Positions 210 through 15,886 of a DNA stretch of 58,733 nt are shown here, one piece after another; positions within the stretch are counted from its first letter, which is position 1, and the number at the start of each line of letters is the position of its first letter. The notes under the pieces were generated by a model. It worked only from the letters and a program-made list of their open reading frames with translations. It had not been told where the DNA came from and did no database searches. Position numbers and translations under genes: made by a program. Origin of the DNA: a virus. The stretch covers positions 1 to 58,733 of IMG/VR virus record IMGVR_UViG_3300037840_000178. The stretch is one strand, 5' to 3'.

Positions 210-3200
210 ATGTCGGCGATAGTGCTCTCAGGGGGGCGGATCTTATCCATCGGAGGCGCCGCTTTCGGCATTGGCCAAAGTACGCCGCCGCCCCCAACAC
301 CTTCCGGGACTCTGTACAAAACGAATTTCGGTCACTACATGATGACCGGCGGGTATGAGTTCGGCACGGGACTAACCTCCGGGGCGAATTACTACTACGG
401 CACCGAGTTGCAACTCTGGTCGACCCTTGGCACTAATAACGTCGCGGGCTACGCCTTTATGATCCCGTGGTGGGTTTTGGAGGATTGCACCCAGACGGTG
501 AATCAGAATAACCCTGCGACTTTGGGGCAAGCTGGGACCCAGTACGCAGGATTTCAGTACATCACGCAAATCATGAATGCGGTTCAGCAAGCCTCCCCTG
601 GAATGAGCTGCATCATGTACACGAAGTTCGCTGTCTTAAGTTCTTTTTCGCAAAGCAATATCACGGGAACAAATTGGGCTACGAGCGCCAAGGTACCAGC
701 CTATGTAACAACCTGCGGTGGCACCCTCACGATGCCTACGAGCTATGGCTCTGGCACTACGATGACAGGAGCTGTTGCGCCTATTTATAGCGGCTCCTCT
801 TACTATGGTTTTGGCTTTGCGGCCTATAGCGGCAACACGAGCCCCGCGAGCAATGAGTATTTTCAAGTTCTCCAGCCCGATGTTCATAACCCAGTGGTCA
901 ATCAGTACATCATTCAGGGACTCCAAGCGCTTTTGCAGCTCCCGATTACGCTCTCCTATGGGCCGTATGCGGGCGAGACATTCACGCTCGATCAGCATCC
1001 GCAGATGACGCTCATTGCGCTAAACGATGAGTACTCGCTCAATATGGGTTCATCGGCGAACTTCTCGACTGGCATCACTTTGAATCCTCGCTTAACCACT
1101 GGGGGGGCGCCGTCGCCCACGATCGCAAACTTCAATGCGGGCTACAGAGGCATGTGCGCGGCGTGGAGTGCGGCGAGCGAGCACACGAATCTTGCAGTAA
1201 ATATCTCATTTGGCTATACGGGATCAAATGCAGATAGCACATCAACTGTCCCTGGATACGTCAACCACAATATCAACACGGCTGGCATATCGAATCTTCC
1301 AGGCATCGTCATGTCATCCTCGGATGGCACGATTAATCAGTGGGGGTTAAATGGTTGGCAGTACCCGGAAGCTTCATGGGCGTGGCAGGGATTCATTGGA
1401 ATCGGAAATGCAGATGGTCCATCGACCGGGCCACTACCAACGCCGACCTATCCGAACCTCACCGGCACGATGCCGACGCTTTGGCAGGTAGAGGCTGGCG
1501 ATTACAACTTAAATTCCGGGGGCAGCCCACAAGGGCCATTGGGGGCGAGCGTCGCTGCGTGCGAGCAAGGGATCATTCCAGGCGCAAACTACGTGCAAGC
1601 TAATTGGATATGCTGGGCGCTCCCAGATGGCGTGCAGTTTGGCACAAATGCCTGGACAGGCGCTTTGAATGGCTCCAATTCCCAGTTCACGAACTATTGG
1701 AATGGAAGTGGTGTTTATAGTGTTCTGCAAAGTAGTGCGGGGTTAAATAGTCCCTCGCAACTACTCGTGACTAACTCGATGGTTGCGCCGCAAAACTTCG
1801 CAGCTGTAACGACTACGACCACCGCCATACTCACTTGGACACCGCAGACAACTAACACGGGCACAGGACTCGCCTACCATATTTATAGAAATGGCTCGCT
1901 CATCGATACGACAGCTAATACCTCAGTGTCTACCTACACTGACACAGGGCTTTCTGCCAATACGAGCTACACATATACGATCAATGTCTACAACTCTAAC
2001 GGTGCAGGGCCCCAATCGACGTTCACCGCTACGACAGCGGTATTTAGCTATACGAATTTCACATCTAGCAATATTGGCGGGGGTGCCGGACAAATATTTC
2101 TATCCGCCAATGCCGCATTGAGCGGCTCTGCTATTGCTCTCACACCTGATAATTCCAACCACACGGCGGGGGCCGCGTGGTACGTGACGCAACAGAATAT
2201 CCAAGCGTTCACGACGAAGTTCACCTTTAGGATCATACCTTCTAATTCGACGCCGCAAGTGGCTTGCGCGATGACGTTTGCTGTACAGAACAGTAATGCG
2301 ACAACGAATGGCAATAGTTATGGACCTCCCTATTTTGTGGCATCTGCGGATGCGAATGTGGGAGGATACGGATCTTACAATCCCTCGATCGGTGCCAATC
2401 AGCAACCAGTCGGCAACTGCATGGTGGTCAAGTTCGACACCAGCGGCTCCGCGCAAGTGAATTATCCGGCTGGAATATTTCCTAACTCGACTGGCGTTTA
2501 TCTTGATGGAGGACCTTACGCCAACATGATCCATTCGGAGGACTTGAATCCGAACGGGATCAACTTGAACTTGGGGAATATTACTACCGCGATCGTCGTC
2601 TATGATGGTTCATTTTTGACCATGGTGCTCCTAGACACGGTTACTCTCGCGCAAGCTAGATACGTGTGGCCGCTTGCAAACCTACCGGCAGTTATGGGCA
2701 CCCTCGGCGTTCCAGGCAATAGCTCTAACATTGCTTGGGTCGGATTTACCGGCGGATGTCCTCCTAATTCAGATTATGCGCAAGAAGTATTGACGTGGGC
2801 ATACTGGACGACGTCAGGATCTCGATTGAGTACGCCTGTATTGAGTCCAACTGCAGGGACCTATAGTTCTGCGCAGACTGTATCCATTTCAGGACCCCCC
2901 GGTGCATCGATCTATTATACGACCAATGGTATTTTGCCGACGAGCGCCTCGACACCGTATACGACTCCTTTCACTGTTAACGTCAATACCATCGTTAACG
3001 CCGTGGCGATTCAGAATGGCTATACAGATAGCTACGTTGCTACTGCAGATTACACCGTTGGCTCATCGACGCCGGTCATCAATTATCCGAGCGGATTTGC
3101 GGCCAATGATGGAATGATTCTTTGTGGACGGGCGACCTTGTCGGGGTCGGCAATTCAGCTGACAGATACCGGGGTTGTAGGGAGCTCTCTCTTGGGAGAA

Positions 3201-3788
3201 GTCGGATGTGCCTGGTACGCAACACCCGTCAGCATTACTAGCTTCACATCGAGCTTTCAACTGCAGTTTACGAGCGCCACTGCAAATGGAATGACTTTCT
3301 GTTTGCAGAATAGGGCTCAATACTCACCGCTCTTTGTTGCAGCAAACGGTGGCTCTTACGTGAGCGGCGGCCCATTCGCGATGGGCAATTACGGAGCCGC
3401 GCTCGGTTACGGGTATCTGTCTGGCAACGGCGGTGGCAGTCCTCCTCCGGGAGGCATCCTCTCGAGTGCCGCAGTATCGTTCAATCTAACCAACAATGGC
3501 TTAGGGTTCTACAGCGGCGGAGTAGTCCCCTCAGGCTCTGATGTCACGATCACGGGCGTCACCTTGACGGGCGGCAACCCGCTCAATGTAGTGGTGAGTT
3601 ACAGCGGCACGACGCTCGCCGTGAGTATCACAGATACGGTGACGACGGCTAACTTTAGCCACAACTTTACCAGCGTGAATCTCTCGACGTTAGTGGGTGG
3701 AAGCACGGCCTTTGCGGGGTTCACAGCGGGGACAGAAAATGGCAGCGAGCAGGCGAATCAGTTCGTCAATAATTGGACGATGAATTAA
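210..3788 (+). CDS. multidomain tail adhesin (FN3, chitobiase-like, two lectin-like domains)
   Basis: 1192 residues. Residues 1-520 are rich in aromatic and Gly/Ser residues, with patterns reminiscent of TIM-barrel glycosidases (not proven). Residues about 523-612 form a fibronectin type III domain. Residues about 614-867 and 955-1192 are two copies of an L-type-lectin-like beta sandwich sharing LSGSAI, AWY.T and SFT..F. Residues about 870-950 look like the chitobiase C-terminal/FN3-associated type (PTAGTYSSAQTVSISGPPGA followed by a YYTTNG turn). The ATG directly follows the upstream stop. A host-glycan-binding adsorption protein, possibly with enzyme activity, is the best inference. Confidence 0.7.
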   Translation: MSAIVLSGGRILSIGGAAFGIGQSTPPPPTPSGTLYKTNFGHYMMTGGYEFGTGLTSGANYYYGTELQLWSTLGTNNVAGYAFMIPWWVLEDCTQTVNQNNPATLGQAGTQYAGFQYITQIMNAVQQASPGMSCIMYTKFAVLSSFSQSNITGTNWATSAKVPAYVTTCGGTLTMPTSYGSGTTMTGAVAPIYSGSSYYGFGFAAYSGNTSPASNEYFQVLQPDVHNPVVNQYIIQGLQALLQLPITLSYGPYAGETFTLDQHPQMTLIALNDEYSLNMGSSANFSTGITLNPRLTTGGAPSPTIANFNAGYRGMCAAWSAASEHTNLAVNISFGYTGSNADSTSTVPGYVNHNINTAGISNLPGIVMSSSDGTINQWGLNGWQYPEASWAWQGFIGIGNADGPSTGPLPTPTYPNLTGTMPTLWQVEAGDYNLNSGGSPQGPLGASVAACEQGIIPGANYVQANWICWALPDGVQFGTNAWTGALNGSNSQFTNYWNGSGVYSVLQSSAGLNSPSQLLVTNSMVAPQNFAAVTTTTTAILTWTPQTTNTGTGLAYHIYRNGSLIDTTANTSVSTYTDTGLSANTSYTYTINVYNSNGAGPQSTFTATTAVFSYTNFTSSNIGGGAGQIFLSANAALSGSAIALTPDNSNHTAGAAWYVTQQNIQAFTTKFTFRIIPSNSTPQVACAMTFAVQNSNATTNGNSYGPPYFVASADANVGGYGSYNPSIGANQQPVGNCMVVKFDTSGSAQVNYPAGIFPNSTGVYLDGGPYANMIHSEDLNPNGINLNLGNITTAIVVYDGSFLTMVLLDTVTLAQARYVWPLANLPAVMGTLGVPGNSSNIAWVGFTGGCPPNSDYAQEVLTWAYWTTSGSRLSTPVLSPTAGTYSSAQTVSISGPPGASIYYTTNGILPTSASTPYTTPFTVNVNTIVNAVAIQNGYTDSYVATADYTVGSSTPVINYPSGFAANDGMILCGRATLSGSAIQLTDTGVVGSSLLGEVGCAWYATPVSITSFTSSFQLQFTSATANGMTFCLQNRAQYSPLFVAANGGSYVSGGPFAMGNYGAALGYGYLSGNGGGSPPPGGILSSAAVSFNLTNNGLGFYSGGVVPSGSDVTITGVTLTGGNPLNVVVSYSGTTLAVSITDTVTTANFSHNFTSVNLSTLVGGSTAFAGFTAGTENGSEQANQFVNNWTMN

Positions 3789-5152: not shown

Positions 5153-5890
5153 ATGAAACCTCAACTTGTGACTGATCTTTCAGGGCTTCATAACGCTGAT
5201 CTAGAAAAGACGCGCACACGAATACTGAAAGGCGGTTCATGGAAACGTCAAAGGACGATCATGATTCTCCCGGCAGCGGATTTGATGCCGGCGAAATGTG
5301 CGCTGTCGCTGATGAATCTTGCATCTCCTCCTAACAATGGTTTTGTTAGATGGCTCGCACTAGGCATGGAAGTAGGTGATGCGTACTCAACCGCGATAGA
5401 GCAAATTCTCGCGCATCCTGATTTGAAAGATTGGGAATTCATACTTTGCTCCGAACACGATAATTGCCCCCCGACTGATGGCCTCATCAAACTGATAGAG
5501 CGCATGGAGCAACATCCAGAATTTTCTGCGCTCGGGGGTGCATATTTTACGAAGGGACCTGAGGGGGCATTTCAGGCGTGGGGAGACCCGCGCGACGCGA
5601 CGCCTAATTTTCGTCCGCAAGCACCAGACCAAAATGGCGGGATAGTTGAGTGCTGTGGCCTTGGTCAAGGGTTTACTCTTTTTAGGTTAGCAATGTTCAA
5701 AGATGAGAGATTGCGCAAACCGTGGTTCAAAACCTTGAACGGTAGAGATGGCTCTGGCGTCTCAACGCAGGATCTATATTTCTGGGGGGATGCGCGAAAG
5801 TACGGCTATAGGTGTGCCGTCGATTGCAGTGTGCGTGTTGGCCACTATGATTTGAAAGGCGATTTCGGGCCTCCGGATACAATGTGGTAA
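5153..5890 (+). CDS. glycosyltransferase, GT-A type
   Basis: 245 residues from the ATG at 5153, which has GGAG six bases upstream; a GTG 15 bases earlier is open but overlaps the previous gene. The pattern is that of GT-A enzymes: an early beta strand (TIMILPA), a helix, then FILCSEHDN (residues 97-104) where EHDN would act as the DxD metal/nucleotide-sugar site, and a later GLGQGF and STQDLYFWGDARKYGY acceptor-side segment. It should transfer a sugar from a nucleotide-sugar donor. Its place among fibre genes suggests modification of virion protein or host surface glycan (inference). Confidence 0.7.
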   Translation: MKPQLVTDLSGLHNADLEKTRTRILKGGSWKRQRTIMILPAADLMPAKCALSLMNLASPPNNGFVRWLALGMEVGDAYSTAIEQILAHPDLKDWEFILCSEHDNCPPTDGLIKLIERMEQHPEFSALGGAYFTKGPEGAFQAWGDPRDATPNFRPQAPDQNGGIVECCGLGQGFTLFRLAMFKDERLRKPWFKTLNGRDGSGVSTQDLYFWGDARKYGYRCAVDCSVRVGHYDLKGDFGPPDTMW

Positions 5891-6531
5891 AGCCTGAAAA
5901 ATTCTCAACAGTTGCAGACTATGTCTACGAGCAGGAAATACGCAAAGGTAATCCATATTTTATGAACGCAGCAGTAGAAACAGTCAAAGAACCATTGAAA
6001 CTTAACCTAGGAGCTGGCAAGTCTAGGATGGATGGGTACCTGTCCGTCGATTCGATCCCATTCGACGGACTAGATGTGATTTGCGATTTGCGCGAGCGTT
6101 GGCCGTGGGATGATAACTCCGCGTCTCATATTCACATGTCGCACGTCCTGGAGCACTTTGAGGCCGAGGAGCGTGTCCACATCTTCAACGAAGCTTATCG
6201 GGTTCTGATTCCCGCCGGACAGATGCACATCGTTACTCCCCATTGGGCATCTCAGCGCGCCTACGGAGATCCGACGCACAAATGGCCACCAGTTTCCGAA
6301 TTTTTGTTTTATTACGGTTGGAAGGAATGGCGTGTTGGCAACGCGCCTCACACCGATATCGAATTCAATCCAAAAGGCTTTAATTGCGATTTCAATTTCG
6401 CAGGCGGTTACTCGTTGCATCCAGAGATGAACGTGTGGCACGACGAGAAAAAACAGTTCGCGCAGAAATGGTACAAAGAAGCTTGCTGTGACACGGTCAT
6501 GACTTGCACGTCGAACAAAAAGCCGCCGTGA
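5884..6531 (+). CDS. SAM-dependent methyltransferase
   Basis: 215 residues. LKLNLGAGKSRMDGYLSVD (from residue about 39) is a class I methyltransferase motif I plus the acidic strand-2 residue. CDLRERWPWDDNS and MSHVLEHF resemble motifs II/III of Methyltransf_11 enzymes, and YRVLIPAGQMHIVTPH is the post-motif strand. The GTG start at 5884 overlaps the glycosyltransferase end; an ATG at 5962 is an alternative that keeps the whole domain. Phage genes of this type usually sit beside glycosyltransferases, so O-methylation of a sugar is a reasonable guess. Confidence 0.72.
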   Translation: MVKPEKFSTVADYVYEQEIRKGNPYFMNAAVETVKEPLKLNLGAGKSRMDGYLSVDSIPFDGLDVICDLRERWPWDDNSASHIHMSHVLEHFEAEERVHIFNEAYRVLIPAGQMHIVTPHWASQRAYGDPTHKWPPVSEFLFYYGWKEWRVGNAPHTDIEFNPKGFNCDFNFAGGYSLHPEMNVWHDEKKQFAQKWYKEACCDTVMTCTSNKKPP

Positions 6532-6934: not shown

Positions 6935-7446
6935 GCACCCCGCAAAACCAAGTCTTCTTGGGCACGACGCAAACGAACGTGCTCACGGTCAATTCCCCTG
7001 GACCACAGGGGCCAACTGGGCCGTTGGGAAATCCAGGCCCCACCGGCCCGGCAGGAGGACCGACAGGACCCACGGGGCCATCGGGCGAAAGCTTGCCCCC
7101 GGTATTTAATAATGCCGTGAGCGCTGCAGTTCCATCTGGGAACTCTGATAGTTTCTCGCCATTCGATTATGTCGCGGGCACGACGGATTATCTTCTTCTC
7201 ACGCCAACCGATAATACCTCGACCTTGCTTGGACTTTCCGCCTTTGGCATCACCGAGCAGATATCGCTCGTCATTTGGAATGCGAGCGTGACGAATACCT
7301 TGACGTTCGAATCCTCCTCGAGCTCAACAGCCGCCAATAGCTTTATCTGCCCGCAGAACATGAGCTTTGTGCTTCAGCCCTATGCGGCGATGCTGATGCT
7401 CTATACGCCTGGATTTGGCTGGGTGCTTTGTGTGGGGAACTCATGA
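6931..7446 (+). CDS. short collagen-like tail fibre protein
   Basis: 171 residues. After a short N-terminal tag, residues 23-55 are Gly-X-Y repeats rich in GPT/GPQ, expected to make a collagen-like triple helix. The rest is a compact hydrophobic/beta C-terminal domain that could be the trimerising head. It is a short version of the fibre at 10476 and lies between methyltransferase and glycosyltransferase genes. The Thr of each GPT is a potential O-glycan site, as known in the Bacillus spore protein BclA. Confidence 0.7.
   Translation: MSTPQNQVFLGTTQTNVLTVNSPGPQGPTGPLGNPGPTGPAGGPTGPTGPSGESLPPVFNNAVSAAVPSGNSDSFSPFDYVAGTTDYLLLTPTDNTSTLLGLSAFGITEQISLVIWNASVTNTLTFESSSSSTAANSFICPQNMSFVLQPYAAMLMLYTPGFGWVLCVGNS
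6997..7095 (+). repeat. collagen-like Gly-X-Y coding repeats (short array)
   Basis: About ten tandem nine-base units encoding Gly-Pro-Thr/Gln/Ala-type triplets inside the preceding fibre gene. The array is GC-rich and internally repetitive, so it may vary in copy number. Confidence 0.7.
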
Positions 7447-8534
7447 AGATAGCCGTCTACGCCATAGCACTTAATGAAGAAAAGCACGTGTCTCGCTTTT
7501 GCGAAGCCGCTGCCGATGCGGATCTGATCTTCGTTGCGGATACCGGGTCAACCGACCGCACAGTGGAGTTACTGAAGGCAGAAAAAAAAGGTCACGATTA
7601 CTTACGCATCGATGTGCGACAGATATCTATCAAACCCTGGCGCTTCGATGATGCGCGCAACGCCGCTCTAGCTCTTTTGCCTGACGACATTGATGTGTGC
7701 GTATCGCTCGATTTGGACGAAGTCTTGCAGCCCGGGTGGCGCGAGGAGATCGAGCGTGTATGGACCGCAGGCACTAATCGCCTACGCTACGGCTTTGACT
7801 GGGGCGCCGGCATCCAATTCGCGTATGAAAAAATCCACGCGCGGCATGGTTTCAGGTGGATAAATCCATGCCACGAATATTTGTTCACGGACCGCATTAC
7901 TGATGTCTGGGCGAACACTGATATGCTCTTGGTGGTTCACGAGCCAGATCCTTCAAAGTCAAGGGGTCAGTACTTGGATTTGCTGCGCATCTCAACCGAG
8001 GAAAATCCGACCGAACCGAGGAACGCCTTTTACTACGCGCGGGAGCTCTCGTGGGCGTCGCGCTGGCAGGAGGCAATCAGGGAGGCGAAGCGGTATTTAG
8101 AACTTCCGCGCGCCACGTGGGCGAATGAGCGCGCCTATGCGATGCGCGTGATTTCGAAGTGCTACATGGAACTTCGCGATTGGCACTGCGCCCTTCAGTG
8201 GGCAAGGAATGCGTGCTCGGAGGCGCCGGATACGCGCGAGCCGTGGGTGCTATTGGCAGAAATCTGCTATCACACCTATCGCTGGGCCGAGTGCTTCGGG
8301 GCGGCAATGTCGGCGCTCTATATCGTAAAACGCGAAAAGCTCTACACCGTCGACCCGTCCGTGTGGGGCTATCAGCCGCACGACTGGGCATCGATTGCGG
8401 CGTGGAATTTAGGGATGAAGGATGTGGCGCTTGAGCATGCACGCAAGTGCGTTGAGATGGCGCCAGAGGATTTGCGGCTTAGGCAGAACGTCAAGATGAT
8501 CGAAGAGGCGTTGGCGAAGGAGATTGCAGCGTGA
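7443..8534 (+). CDS. family 2 glycosyltransferase with helical TPR-like C-terminus
   Basis: 363 residues from the ATG at 7443 (GGGGA six bases upstream); the GTG 15 bases before lies inside the previous gene. AIALNEEKHV, VADTGSTDRT (residues 31-40) and SLDLDEVL (89-95, DxD) are classic GT2 motifs. After residue about 180 the protein becomes helical with repeated Trp/Ala-rich pairs (ARELSWASRWQEAI, YHTYRWAECFGAAM), typical of the TPR-like tail of this group. Second sugar transferase of the fibre cassette; acceptor unknown. Confidence 0.85.
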   Translation: MKIAVYAIALNEEKHVSRFCEAAADADLIFVADTGSTDRTVELLKAEKKGHDYLRIDVRQISIKPWRFDDARNAALALLPDDIDVCVSLDLDEVLQPGWREEIERVWTAGTNRLRYGFDWGAGIQFAYEKIHARHGFRWINPCHEYLFTDRITDVWANTDMLLVVHEPDPSKSRGQYLDLLRISTEENPTEPRNAFYYARELSWASRWQEAIREAKRYLELPRATWANERAYAMRVISKCYMELRDWHCALQWARNACSEAPDTREPWVLLAEICYHTYRWAECFGAAMSALYIVKREKLYTVDPSVWGYQPHDWASIAAWNLGMKDVALEHARKCVEMAPEDLRLRQNVKMIEEALAKEIAA

Positions 8535-10184: not shown

Positions 10185-10474
10185 GACTCATCGACTTAGA
10201 GCCGAGGTGGTACACGCTGGAGGACAGAGATGTCCGGGTCGGCTTCAGTTTTGACTGTCCACATTGCACGCTAGTTAGGCTGGGAGTGGCAGTGCATGAT
10301 AAGGGGCATCGCGTTCTAGGCGCGGCGAAGGAAGTTACCCATCCACCTGCGGAAGGCCGAGTGTGGGAGATTACAGCTGGAAATAGTTTTCAGGACATCA
10401 GTCTCCAGCCAAGCATAGATGCAAGCCAAGTGGGGCATTGGCACGGCCATATTACGAACGGGGAAGTTACGTAA
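10181..10474 (+). CDS. DUF6527-like small protein
   Basis: 97 residues. FDCPHC gives a CxxC pair, followed by W(E)[17 protein letters not shown] and [11 protein letters not shown]. This order (CxxC, then 'L.PSI', then a His-rich HGHI..G) is what I remember of the DUF6527 phage proteins. It may bind zinc. GTG start overlaps the preceding stop. Role unknown. Confidence 0.55.
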
Positions 10475-10475
10475 A

Positions 10476-11951
10476 GTGGCAAATTCCACCATTCCCATGC
10501 TCCCCCAAGCCCAAAGCCTTTTGGGTGATGAGCAACTAGAAGCCGTGCAGGCTGCGACTTCCGTGCGCGTTACCGCCGCGCAGATCGCAGCCCTTGGGGG
10601 CCCACAAGGCCCGACAGGTCCCACGGGACCGCCTAATGGCCCCCCTGGGCCAACAGGTCCCACGGGCCCCTCTGGCGTAGGCCCACAAGGCGCGCAAGGC
10701 GCCACTGGCCCCGTAGGCCCGACAGGGCCGCAAGGCGCCGGCAGCCAAGGTCCCACAGGGCCGACTGGCCCCACCGGATCCGCCGGCGCCGCAGGCCCAG
10801 GAGGCCCCACGGGGCCTGGGGGCACCGGCCCCACAGGCCCCACCGGTACAGGCACTCAAGGCCCCACGGGCCCCACGGGCGCCGCTGGTATGGGACAGAC
10901 GGGCCCGACCGGCCCCACAGGCGCCGGCGGATCCTCCGGCAGCGCTGGCCCCACAGGCCCCTCTGGTCCCACAGGCCCAGGATTTGGCGTTCAGGTATCG
11001 AACACCACCTATACGTCCGGCACTGTCACTTTTCAAAATGCGAATGGGATCTCCTTCGGGAGCTCGGGCGTTGGCGGCATCTCGGCCTCCTACGGCGGCC
11101 TCAATCTATCCGCCGGCACGACTTCTGGCAGTTTGGGCTCCGTCACGCTTTCGAACTCAAACGGGGTGTCTTTTGGCTTGAACGCCGGCACCGTCACCGC
11201 CTCGATCGCTTCGACCTACGCGGGGACGGGTTTATCGATCGGAGCGACATCGCAAGGGGGGCAACTCTCAGGCACCTTGAACACCGCGGGCCTGTCGATC
11301 AATCAGCCGTACCTCACGCGCCTGATCATCCCGGATGGCAATCAGCTGACACTGCTATCTGCTCTTGGGAACGCCTCGGCCTCTTTCCAGTACCTGGCAG
11401 CGCAAGGGGCAATCACGGGGACGCGCATCGATGCGTTGGCCTCTTGGTCTGGTGCCTCCTCGGCTACGGCAAACACGTGCGCAGTGGCAATATCGGCATA
11501 CGCCGCGATCTACACTAACAACGCATTGACCTTATCCTCGCTCTCTTCTGGCTCTACGCAGACGACCTACAGCTACGCCTCTAATAGTGCAGGGCATACC
11601 GAACTCACGGCCGGGGCCATTCGCCCGATTTCATGCCCCGTTAACTTCAACATCGCCCCCGGGGAATACCTCGTGGGCTTTAACGTTGTGACGGCAACTT
11701 CTAGTATCGGCACGGCCACTACCAATCTCGCGCAAACGATTTCCATGATGGGAGGCAATCAGTTTCAGTCCGCGATCAATTATGCGGAGTTTGGATCGAA
11801 TACCGCATCGTCGACGAACTTAATCGGCGGCATGGGCATCTACACTGCCGCAACGACTGGGCTGCCGGGCTCGGTCGCACTCTCTAATCTCGCACAAACG
11901 GGGGCGTCCTTGAGCCAGGCAAATATTGCCATGGTCTTTAGGAATCAGTAA
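10476..11951 (+). CDS. collagen-like tail fibre protein
   Basis: 491 residues from GTG 10476 (GGGGAAG about ten bases upstream). Residues 1-40 are a virion-attachment-like helix ([13 protein letters not shown]). Residues about 41-170 are nearly pure Gly-Pro-Thr/Gln/Ala repeats. Residues 175-300 are Gly/Ser/Thr beta repeats with NSNGVSFGL-type units, as in shaft regions. The C-terminal 190 residues form the tip, whose end is paralogous to the partial gene at the window start. Probably a trimeric receptor-binding fibre; a target for the nearby glycosyltransferases is an inference. Confidence 0.8.
10596..10985 (+). repeat. collagen-like Gly-X-Y coding repeats (long array)
   Basis: Roughly 43 tandem GGN-CCN-NNN units encode GPT-rich collagen triplets. 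Because GGN and CCN codons are mutually complementary, the opposite strand also reads as Gly/Pro/Ala-rich open frames, which are artefacts. The array could recombine or slip and so vary in length. Confidence 0.85.
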
Positions 11952-13101: not shown

Positions 13102-13501
13102 CGGCTGCGCAACCATCCAGGGATGGTTCGGTAGCCCCACCACGGCCCAGTACATTCAAGATGCCGTGAACGTCGCCGTACTTGTCGCGAGCACGCAAGG
13201 GGTGTCGGCTGCGGAAATTAACGCGATAGCGAAGGCCGCGCTAGCGGCGGATAACGGCGCGGTGTCCACTCTTGCCGAACTGCAAACGCTCCTTGATAAG
13301 GAAATCGCCAAACTGAATCTTCCAACGGCCGACCAGACGGCCATAGGCATTGTGGTGTCGGCGCTATCCGGTGCACTCGCAAGCGCGATTGGCACCAATA
13401 CGACCGTTCAGCAGGCGCAAGTCATCATAGCCGATGTGTTGAACGATATCGTTGCGGCAACTTCTATAGCGAAGGTGAAATCTCGCGGATTGAAGCCGTG
13501 A
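13058..13501 (+). CDS. lipoprotein of the lysis cassette (outer-spanin candidate)
   Basis: 147 residues from ATG 13058 with AAGGA seven bases upstream; an open ATG at 13022 is less likely because it would precede the signal peptide with a charged extension. MRKFLLTLPVLLALNGC is a clear type II signal peptide with lipobox LNGC, so the mature protein should be lipid-anchored at Cys17. The remainder is Ala/Thr-rich and helical. An outer-membrane lipoprotein in a lysis operon suggests an outer spanin, though it is longer than usual. Confidence 0.65.
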   Translation: MRKFLLTLPVLLALNGCATIQGWFGSPTTAQYIQDAVNVAVLVASTQGVSAAEINAIAKAALAADNGAVSTLAELQTLLDKEIAKLNLPTADQTAIGIVVSALSGALASAIGTNTTVQQAQVIIADVLNDIVAATSIAKVKSRGLKP

Positions 13502-14304
13502 AGTACGGGCGCCTCCCGCGCGGGCATGATCCGCGTGTGCCGAAGATGGCTACGCTTCGGGCCATGGGTTCCACGCCTCCGTTGCCTGAGCCCGTCAATT
13601 ATTCTGTAGGGATGCCGGCGGATTTAGGGATGATGCTAAATGATACTCTCGGCGACTGCACGGCAGCGGCATGCGGACACGCATTACAGGTCTTCTCACA
13701 CAACGCGACACCACCGATGGTCACGCCAACGGATGGCCAAGTGGAAGCTCTGTACGAGGCGACCGGGGGCTACGTGCCAGGGGAACCCAATACCGATAAT
13801 GGCGCCGTTGAACAGGTAGTTCTTCAGTACTGGCTGAATAATCCGCTCGATAGCAATCAATTGGCCGCGTTCGTAGAGATCGACGTGAAGGATCTGGCGG
13901 ATGTGAAGCGCGCCATTTGGGAATGCGGCGTTGTTTATATCGGCCTTACCGTTCCAGCGTTTCTGCAAAACCTCGAGGCGCCGGGGTCGAACTGGAACGT
14001 AAGCCCAAATGCTGATAACACCATCATTGGCGGCCACGCCGTCGCTGTGGTTGGCTGGGATGCTCGCGACAATTTCATCCTGATTTCGTGGGGCGCCGTA
14101 TACACGATGACGCCGTCTTTCTGGCTTGGCTTTGTTGATGAGGCATACGCGCTTGCCAATCCCGCCTGGATGGAAAAGACGGGCCGCAGTCCCGCAGGGC
14201 TCTCGCTCGGAAAGCTCGAAGCGTTAATGGCCTCGATGAGGGCGGATCCTAAGCCCCAAGAGCATCGCCATCACAGGCGAAAAAAGCGCTGGAGCGCTAC
14301 ATGA
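13498..14304 (+). CDS. papain-like cysteine protease (C1-like)
   Basis: 268 residues, GTGA start. NDTLGDCTAAACGHA places a candidate nucleophile at Cys54; IIGGHAVAVVGWDARDNF places the His at 180, and FILISWG follows where papains have the Asn-Ser-Trp-Gly strand (here Ile replaces Asn). That Cys...GGHAV.VVGWD...SWG order is the C1 papain-like signature. The C-terminus is basic (HHRRKKR). Possible roles are virion-protein maturation, host-protein cleavage or cell-wall peptide cleavage; the place after lysis genes does not settle it. Confidence 0.7.
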   Translation: MKYGRLPRGHDPRVPKMATLRAMGSTPPLPEPVNYSVGMPADLGMMLNDTLGDCTAAACGHALQVFSHNATPPMVTPTDGQVEALYEATGGYVPGEPNTDNGAVEQVVLQYWLNNPLDSNQLAAFVEIDVKDLADVKRAIWECGVVYIGLTVPAFLQNLEAPGSNWNVSPNADNTIIGGHAVAVVGWDARDNFILISWGAVYTMTPSFWLGFVDEAYALANPAWMEKTGRSPAGLSLGKLEALMASMRADPKPQEHRHHRRKKRWSAT

Positions 14305-14501
14305 GCGCTGTGACCTGGACACCGACGCCTTATCTGCAGTGGATGAAGCGGGCGCCTCCGGCGGGCGCAGTGCTGCCGCCTGGCGAGTACACGATGGTGT
14401 TGCAACAGTGGTTCACATCCTCGGAAGGTGGAGGGCAGTGGCAGGAGTTGCCAGTAAGATTCTGGAACGAGGTATACCAGAACCCCCCGCCGACAGCATG
14501 A
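14301..14501 (+). CDS. small hypothetical protein
   Basis: 66 residues between the protease and the glycosyltransferase-sulfotransferase genes, ATGA overlaps at both ends. Trp- and Pro-rich (TWTPTPYLQWMKRAPP, GQWQELPVRFWNEVYQNPPP). No family recognised. Confidence 0.5.
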   Translation: MSAVTWTPTPYLQWMKRAPPAGAVLPPGEYTMVLQQWFTSSEGGGQWQELPVRFWNEVYQNPPPTA

Positions 14502-15886
14502 GCGGAGAGCCTCGCATTGGATTTGCGACCTTGTGCAAGGGGCGCGCTTTTCATCTCAAGGAAACCTTACCGAGGAACCTCAAGGACGTCGAGAGTTACC
14601 CCAATGCGTTTTGCGTGATACTGGACTATGAATCGCAGGACGATTTGATTCCTTACCTGAAGGCCAATCACTCGAGCGATATCGAGAGCGGGAAGCTTGT
14701 CGTCTACAGTTATCGAAATGGCGGGGCGCCTCTGAAATTAGCGCATGGGAAAAACTTAGCCATGCGCTGCGCGATCCTTGAGGGGGCAGAACTTGTTTGT
14801 CAAATGGATGCCGATAACTGGGGTGGTGCAGGCTTCACGAAATTCATCTCAGATATTTTCAGAGAACCCGGAATGGTTCCAGGGATATTTGCAATCCCTG
14901 ACTACCATCTCATTAAGAGTCTGCCACACGGAAAGAGCCGCCCCGTGCGCGGGTATGCGGGGCGCCTTGTGTGTTGGGCACAAACGTTCATCAAGATGGG
15001 CGGCTACGCTGAGGAATTCGAGGTCTGGGGGTCAGAGGATATTTGCACAAATTTCAGGCTCCAGAGGGCCGGATATCAGATCCGGCATATCCCGAATCAT
15101 TTTCTAAATGCCATAAACCACAGTGCCGCCATTCGCTTCAAGGAATACCCGAACGCGCAGCAATTCGAAAATGATAGCCAAGTTGAGATCCTGAAAGCCA
15201 AAACGAACACGGTCGTGAATTACGGCCAGTTTGGCCTAGGGAAGGTGTATCGAAATTTCAGCGAAACGGCAATTGAGTTAAGGCCACTCCCGACGCGCGT
15301 CTTTGGAATAGGAGTGCAGCGCACTGGTACGACCTCACTCCATGAGGCGTTCAAGATGCTCGGCTTCGATAGCCTCCATTGGGGCACAGGCGAAGCGCCT
15401 CTCATCTGGTACGAAATGAATGCGCTTGGGCGCTCAAAGACCCTTGAGCAATGGTACGCGCTCTGTGACTTCCCGATCCCATTGCTCTATCAGAAACTCG
15501 ACAAGGCGTATCCCGGCTCTAAGTTCGTCCTTACCATCCGCAACGAATCCGATTGGCTAGAAAGCGTACGCAAGCTCTGGGATTACAAAACGAACCCGCA
15601 CCGGTATCTGTGGGAGATTTATCCCATCTCACACCAATTGCACACCGCTTTCTATGGCCAAAAGGAATTCGACGCGGCCAAATTTGTGGCGCGCTACCGG
15701 CAGCATAACGCCGAGGTCCTTGAGTACTTCAGTGGGCGCCCAGATGATCTTCTGATCCTAGATATGGATCGGCCGAGAGGAAAGCTGGCTGCGCTTTGCA
15801 AGTTTCTAGATATGCCATCCCCGACGACAGATGGGCTCTATCCGCGCGCGAACCGCTCAACCGAGAGTTTTGTGCCCACCACTTAG
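14498..15886 (+). CDS. glycosyltransferase-sulfotransferase fusion
   Basis: 462 residues from ATG 14498. Residues 1-250 form a GT-A transferase: GFATLCKGRAFHL, then CQMDADNWGG (101-110, DxD), then FEVWGSEDICTNFRLQRAGY (175-193), the acceptor-side Glu-Asp of GT2/GT7-like enzymes. From residue 267, RVFGIGVQRTGTTSLHEAF is the 5'-phosphosulfate loop of PAPS-dependent sulfotransferases (Sulfotransfer_4 style), followed by FDSLHW and PGSKFVLTIRNESDWLESV, the 3'-phosphate Arg/Ser segment. One chain could both add a sugar and sulfate it. No linker stop or frameshift. The C-terminus overlaps a convergent minus-strand ORF. Confidence 0.82.
   Translation: MSGEPRIGFATLCKGRAFHLKETLPRNLKDVESYPNAFCVILDYESQDDLIPYLKANHSSDIESGKLVVYSYRNGGAPLKLAHGKNLAMRCAILEGAELVCQMDADNWGGAGFTKFISDIFREPGMVPGIFAIPDYHLIKSLPHGKSRPVRGYAGRLVCWAQTFIKMGGYAEEFEVWGSEDICTNFRLQRAGYQIRHIPNHFLNAINHSAAIRFKEYPNAQQFENDSQVEILKAKTNTVVNYGQFGLGKVYRNFSETAIELRPLPTRVFGIGVQRTGTTSLHEAFKMLGFDSLHWGTGEAPLIWYEMNALGRSKTLEQWYALCDFPIPLLYQKLDKAYPGSKFVLTIRNESDWLESVRKLWDYKTNPHRYLWEIYPISHQLHTAFYGQKEFDAAKFVARYRQHNAEVLEYFSGRPDDLLILDMDRPRGKLAALCKFLDMPSPTTDGLYPRANRSTESFVPTT

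Follow-up and report, generated by a model that had tools for sequence, protein, structure and literature searches.

Phage-encoded sulfotransferases are already known, and their function has been called unclear in a report on the OM43 phages (PMC10580990) as well as in a further work (PMC8290583). The APS kinase (cysC) of phage genomes is usually interpreted as belonging to assimilatory sulfate reduction (PMC9529941). For SmSULT, a sulfotransferase of the Sulfotransfer_4 family, Asp91 has been shown to hydrogen-bond the accepting hydroxyl (PMC4618941). A fusion of a sulfotransferase with a glycosyltransferase in a phage, or the pairing of such a fusion with an APS kinase, was not found described in the open-access literature. 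The initial annotation of the locus considered here held phage sulfotransferases to be rare, which proved partly wrong, since they have been reported in phages by the papers mentioned and the fusion alone is present in about 70 variants in IMG/VR.

Fusion gene and domain composition

The window, i.e., the whole stretch of 58,733 nucleotides analysed, is a linear IMG/VR tailed-phage record (IMGVR_UViG_3300037840_000178) with terminase, portal, adaptor and structural genes. The fusion gene (14498..15886, plus strand; 462 aa), delineated by ORF translation, Pfam, alignment, an AlphaFold model and Foldseek, is located in the structural-gene region and adjoins an SU10-type adaptor gene. It is separated from an upstream gene for a papain-fold cysteine-protease-like protein (13498..14304, plus strand; phrog_19005) by a 66-aa ORF (14301..14501, plus strand), which starts on the stop of the papain-like gene and whose TGA is overlapped by the ATG of the fusion (ATGA junction); with the starts and stops overlapping in this way, the three genes look translationally coupled.

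The motifs MDADNW, GSEDICTNF, RTGTTSL and IRNESDW, on which the first reading was based, are all present in the 462-aa translation, and both halves are kept in 46 aligned full-length relatives. The AlphaFold2 model built from this 46-sequence alignment covers both halves (pLDDT 91.3, pTM 0.90), and the model and the domain searches contain two soluble domains and no others. A chance ORF or a misread motif is thus excluded by the Pfam matches, the 46 full-length relatives and the confident model, and the reading of a GT-A transferase and a sulfotransferase in a single phage chain agrees with Pfam, fold and phage setting alike. The earlier proposal of a sulfated sugar made in a single step is unlikely in its latter part, because the two separate domains each have an active site of their own, and the one protein would be expected to carry out two reactions in succession.

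The GT-A half (aa 1-261; 14498..15280, plus strand) matches Glyco_transf_7C (PF02709) at aa 151-207 with 28.2 bits (curated cut-off 23; E 1.5e-6). Its structural neighbours in Foldseek are the K4 chondroitin polymerase (K4CP), heparosan synthase 2, GalNAc-T2 and B4GALT1, with E values of 5e-9 to 6e-6 and an identity of about 11-17%; the PDB profile searches agree with the GT-A fold, the similarity in sequence being weak. Judged from the alignment, the half contains the predicted DxD metal motif (D104/D106) and a conserved position for the putative acidic base, D181, which sits in a W-x-x-E/D-D motif. Both residues of the former, D181 and H208 are invariant in 46/46 aligned fusions, and the base and metal roles of D181 and H208 are assumed by analogy with B4GALT-type enzymes. 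Residue 183 is Cys in the window protein versus Asp in 43 of the 46 aligned sequences, a point against the proposed function.

The Sulfotransfer_4 half (aa 262-462; 15281..15883, plus strand) is assigned by the PF17784 profile at aa 267-455 with 104 bits (curated cut-off 22.8; E 1.3e-29), the alignment spanning profile positions 1-213 of 215, and both Foldseek and the PDB profile search return SmSULT, Cpz8 (also solved with PAP) and SgdX2. Profile and fold therefore both match sulfotransferases, so that the first of the two grounds on which the initial annotation could have been refuted does not apply. The putative PAPS site consists of the 5'-phosphosulfate loop R275-T-G-T-T-S280, D324 and R348/S356, where T276, T278 and D324 are conserved in 46/46 sequences, and the PAPS-binding Arg and Ser positions nearly so (S280 and R348 in 45/46, S356 in 43/46), which removes the second ground, their absence. 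D324 is aligned with the conserved Asp of the schistosome SULTs and is a candidate counterpart of Asp91 in SmSULT. Taken over the alignment, the positions expected to bind metal, nucleotide-sugar, PAPS and acceptor show little or no variation. For the sulfotransferase half, the PHROG search gave no match.

Distribution and relatedness of the fusions

The scans of IMG/VR, which used the full protein as well as its two halves separately, gave 72 distinct fusions when three genome loci were added, and 70 of these are full length. The two profile matches abut, with a median gap of 2 aa and almost no linker. An assembly artefact is ruled out by the about 70 distinct fusions; the close viral relatives without the fusion are contig-end fragments alone, and the true GT-only or ST-only viral relatives are distant (22-36%). 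In the tree of the sulfotransferase domain, 67/67 fusion rows fall in one clade with a support of 99/95, the bootstrap being not fully settled, and this clade is separate from the cellular and other viral Sulfotransfer_4 rows fetched. The distances of the GT and ST halves across the fusions correlate with r 0.62, the permutation maximum being 0.22.

The search of one genome per prokaryote species matched 40 loci, with the full fusion in only three (L051, L052 and L053). Terminase genes lie near the fusion in L051 and L052, which are therefore probably phage contigs binned with MAGs. The fusion in L053, an alphaproteobacterial MAG, stands among chromosome-like genes (autotransporter, SDR, patatin, aldo/keto reductase), and the 782- and 1132-aa genes adjoining it are without clear family matches. 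When 52 loci were compared with the window ORFs, the fusion alone was widely common and the backbones were mostly unrelated. Since the carrier phages have almost nothing else in common, the fusion appears as portable cargo, and a vertically inherited phage gene is ruled out by the differing backbones. The protein search of 50,697 phage records gave a single match, at 30% and in the GT half only; at the DNA level, no near-identical phage record was found for the first 25 kb of the window. In L164 (4138-6726), an 863-aa stop-to-stop frame, the N-terminal part of which may not be coding, has at its C-terminal end a sequence distantly related to the GT half.

APS kinase and the supply of PAPS

APS kinase first surfaced in the Pfam scan of the genes flanking the fusion. 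With 76 records scanned end to end, six strong APS kinases (154.8-206.5 bits) and a partial one (L015), in which a nucleotidyltransferase-like stretch is attached to a P-loop kinase, were found, besides one weak and remote match (22 bits); the gene is thus present in only about 9% of the fusion records, which speaks against the proposed function. In all seven cases, strong and partial, the kinase gene directly follows the fusion in the same orientation, 15-1448 bp downstream, and a crude uniform-placement product for the seven positions is about 5e-14, an overstatement given that G005 and G006 are almost identical. As a control, the 6-kb flanks of 72 papain-like-gene loci without the fusion, scanned with a small two-sequence model, contained no APS kinase. 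This constant position directly behind the fusion supports PAPS as the donor and, together with the conserved sites, the use of PAPS that was proposed at the outset. The whole-record scan found no APS kinase in the window record, so that the window phage would use the PAPS of its host.

CysH accompanies the kinase in only one of the seven records. A role of the APS kinase as a member of a sulfate-reduction set was rejected for this reason, and the missing CysH in the other six makes sulfation fit better than assimilation there. A gene of the Inositol_P (PAP phosphatase) type was found in none of the 8 records tested. Separately, in a Methylococcaceae locus (L054:7914-9335), a Sulfotransfer_4 domain shares its chain with an Inositol_P domain, which may be a PAP phosphatase that removes the by-product.

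Gene neighbourhood and the papain-like partner

A second glycosyltransferase (GT2 + TPR, phrog_13126; 7428..8534, plus strand), a possible co-worker, is encoded about 6 kb upstream of the fusion in the window, and a collagen-like tail fibre (10419-11951) and a methyltransferase (5884-6531) are also near. The 1192-aa protein at 210-3788, with fibronectin III and CHB_HEX_C (chitobiase C-terminal-like) domains, is likely a sugar-binding tail protein. Across the records, the fusion has varied neighbours, including terminases, helicases, DNA polymerases and head proteins, so that a virion target cannot be read clearly from the gene position. A collagen-like (Gly-X-Y) neighbour as a constant target was rejected, the repeat scan having flagged none near the fusion.

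The predicted fold of the papain-like protein (pLDDT 91) has xylellain as its best match, and 23 of the 72 distinct fusions have a gene of this family at most 1.6 kb away, on either side. In papain, Asn precedes the SWG motif; the residue at this place in the phage protein is not Asn, and it may therefore not be an active protease. The family is widespread in environmental phages, and 72 of 80 papain-like loci had neither a fusion half nor an APS kinase, so that the tie to sulfation is statistical only; the partner was accordingly discarded as a sulfation marker, being mostly found without the fusion and among varied neighbours. The C-terminus of the papain-like protein of the window (13498-14304) is rich in His and Arg, and some fusions (L007, L014: RRHERQHHHH, NRQHHHHRRLRE) have His/Arg-rich C-terminal tails resembling those of the papain-like partners.

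Proposed function and alternatives

The fusion protein would be a bifunctional soluble enzyme, whose GT-A domain, with a metal bound by the DxD motif, may move a sugar from a nucleotide-sugar donor onto an acceptor, after which the Sulfotransfer_4 domain would pass the sulfonate of PAPS on to a hydroxyl, most likely one of the newly attached sugar; a sulfated sugar is thus a reasonable inference for the product. The PAPS would be drawn from the host, or be made in some phages by an APS kinase of their own, the gene for which directly follows the fusion. The acceptor would most likely be a phage structural protein of the tail or head surface in the cytoplasm, and the outcome a sulfated, negatively charged virion glycan. 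We consider it probable that an acceptor in the cytoplasm, presumably a virion protein, receives first the sugar and then the sulfate. The broader proposal that the fusion, sometimes with APS kinase and the papain-fold partner, is a portable phage sulfation cassette decorating virions with sulfated glycans and served by part of the viral cysC is put forward tentatively, being somewhat less probable than its contrary.

The initial annotation had placed the sulfated sugar either on the virion or on the host surface. Phages commonly alter receptors, and the same bifunctional enzyme might have as its acceptor a glycan on the surface of the host, or a lipid-linked precursor, the changed envelope blocking superinfection. 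Such a role would suit portable cargo of unrelated phages, as expected of an exclusion or lysogeny gene, and the L053 copy, whose chromosome-like setting makes a virion target not obvious. However, the GtrA flippase was found in 0/44 records, although these may be fragments, which also disfavours the Gtr-type O-antigen conversion; moreover, the protein has only its two soluble domains, and the window gene lies in the structural region beside the adaptor gene, so that a host-surface acceptor is rather unlikely. Phages are also known to glucosylate hypermodified bases, and a hydroxylated base of phage DNA could be glycosylated and then sulfated, but thymidylate-synthase/hydroxymethylase-type genes are absent from the window, and only 3/44 records have one above the cut-off, which renders a DNA target very improbable. 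With GtrA lacking and the thymidylate-synthase-type genes few, a cytoplasmic acceptor is left, most simply a virion protein.

The coupling of the two reactions might be doubted as well, if the GT half served one acceptor and the ST half a small molecule or a protein hydroxyl, the two being fused for co-expression; SmSULT sulfonates a small molecule, and Cpz8 belongs to an antibiotic pathway. Occasional separation of the halves would then be expected, but they form one clade, were never split in about 70 variants, have almost no linker and diverged in a correlated manner, and independent action is thus improbable, more so than a host-surface acceptor.

For the phage sulfotransferases, the fusion with a GT and the gene order with APS kinase offer a testable answer, namely sulfated glycans made during infection, and an alternative reading for the viral cysC genes, which are commonly assigned to sulfur assimilation. 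If the cassette proposal is true, part of the viral cysC would serve sulfation, and the cassette would be exchanged between unrelated phages. In addition, the fusion provides a natural example of a single-chain enzyme that may be able to produce sulfated sugars.

Comparison with known systems

The GT half shares the GT-A fold, the DxD motif and the W-x-x-E-D region with enzymes of the B4GALT, GalNAc-T and K4 chondroitin polymerase type, but differs from them in its low identity (about 11-17%) and in being joined to a sulfotransferase. Similarly, the fold, the phosphosulfate-loop motif, the R/S 3'-phosphate site and, putatively, the conserved Asp are common to the fusion and to SmSULT, Cpz8 and SgdX2 (PF17784), whereas these were solved as single-domain proteins and the domain makes up here the C-terminal part of a viral fusion with a GT. 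Another, separate Sulfotransfer_4 architecture is carried by cellular proteins of Maricaulaceae, Myxococcota and Gemmatimonadota (L062, L063, L065, L087, L058 and L060), in which the sulfotransferase is likewise C-terminal and is preceded by a domain containing a DAD motif (DADC); however, this domain is unalignable to the fusion GT beyond the motif, and the ST domains form a clade separate from that of the fusions.

Among phages, the marine Sulfotransfer_3 enzymes (OM43 phages, Synechococcus phage S-SRM01; PMC10580990) also provide a sulfotransferase domain, but of PF13469 in contrast to PF17784 of the fusion, and the available part of that report mentions no fusion for them. The viral cysC auxiliary metabolic genes place an APS kinase in phage genomes, as in some of the fusion records, where its location directly behind the fusion makes the supply of PAPS for sulfation the better reading.
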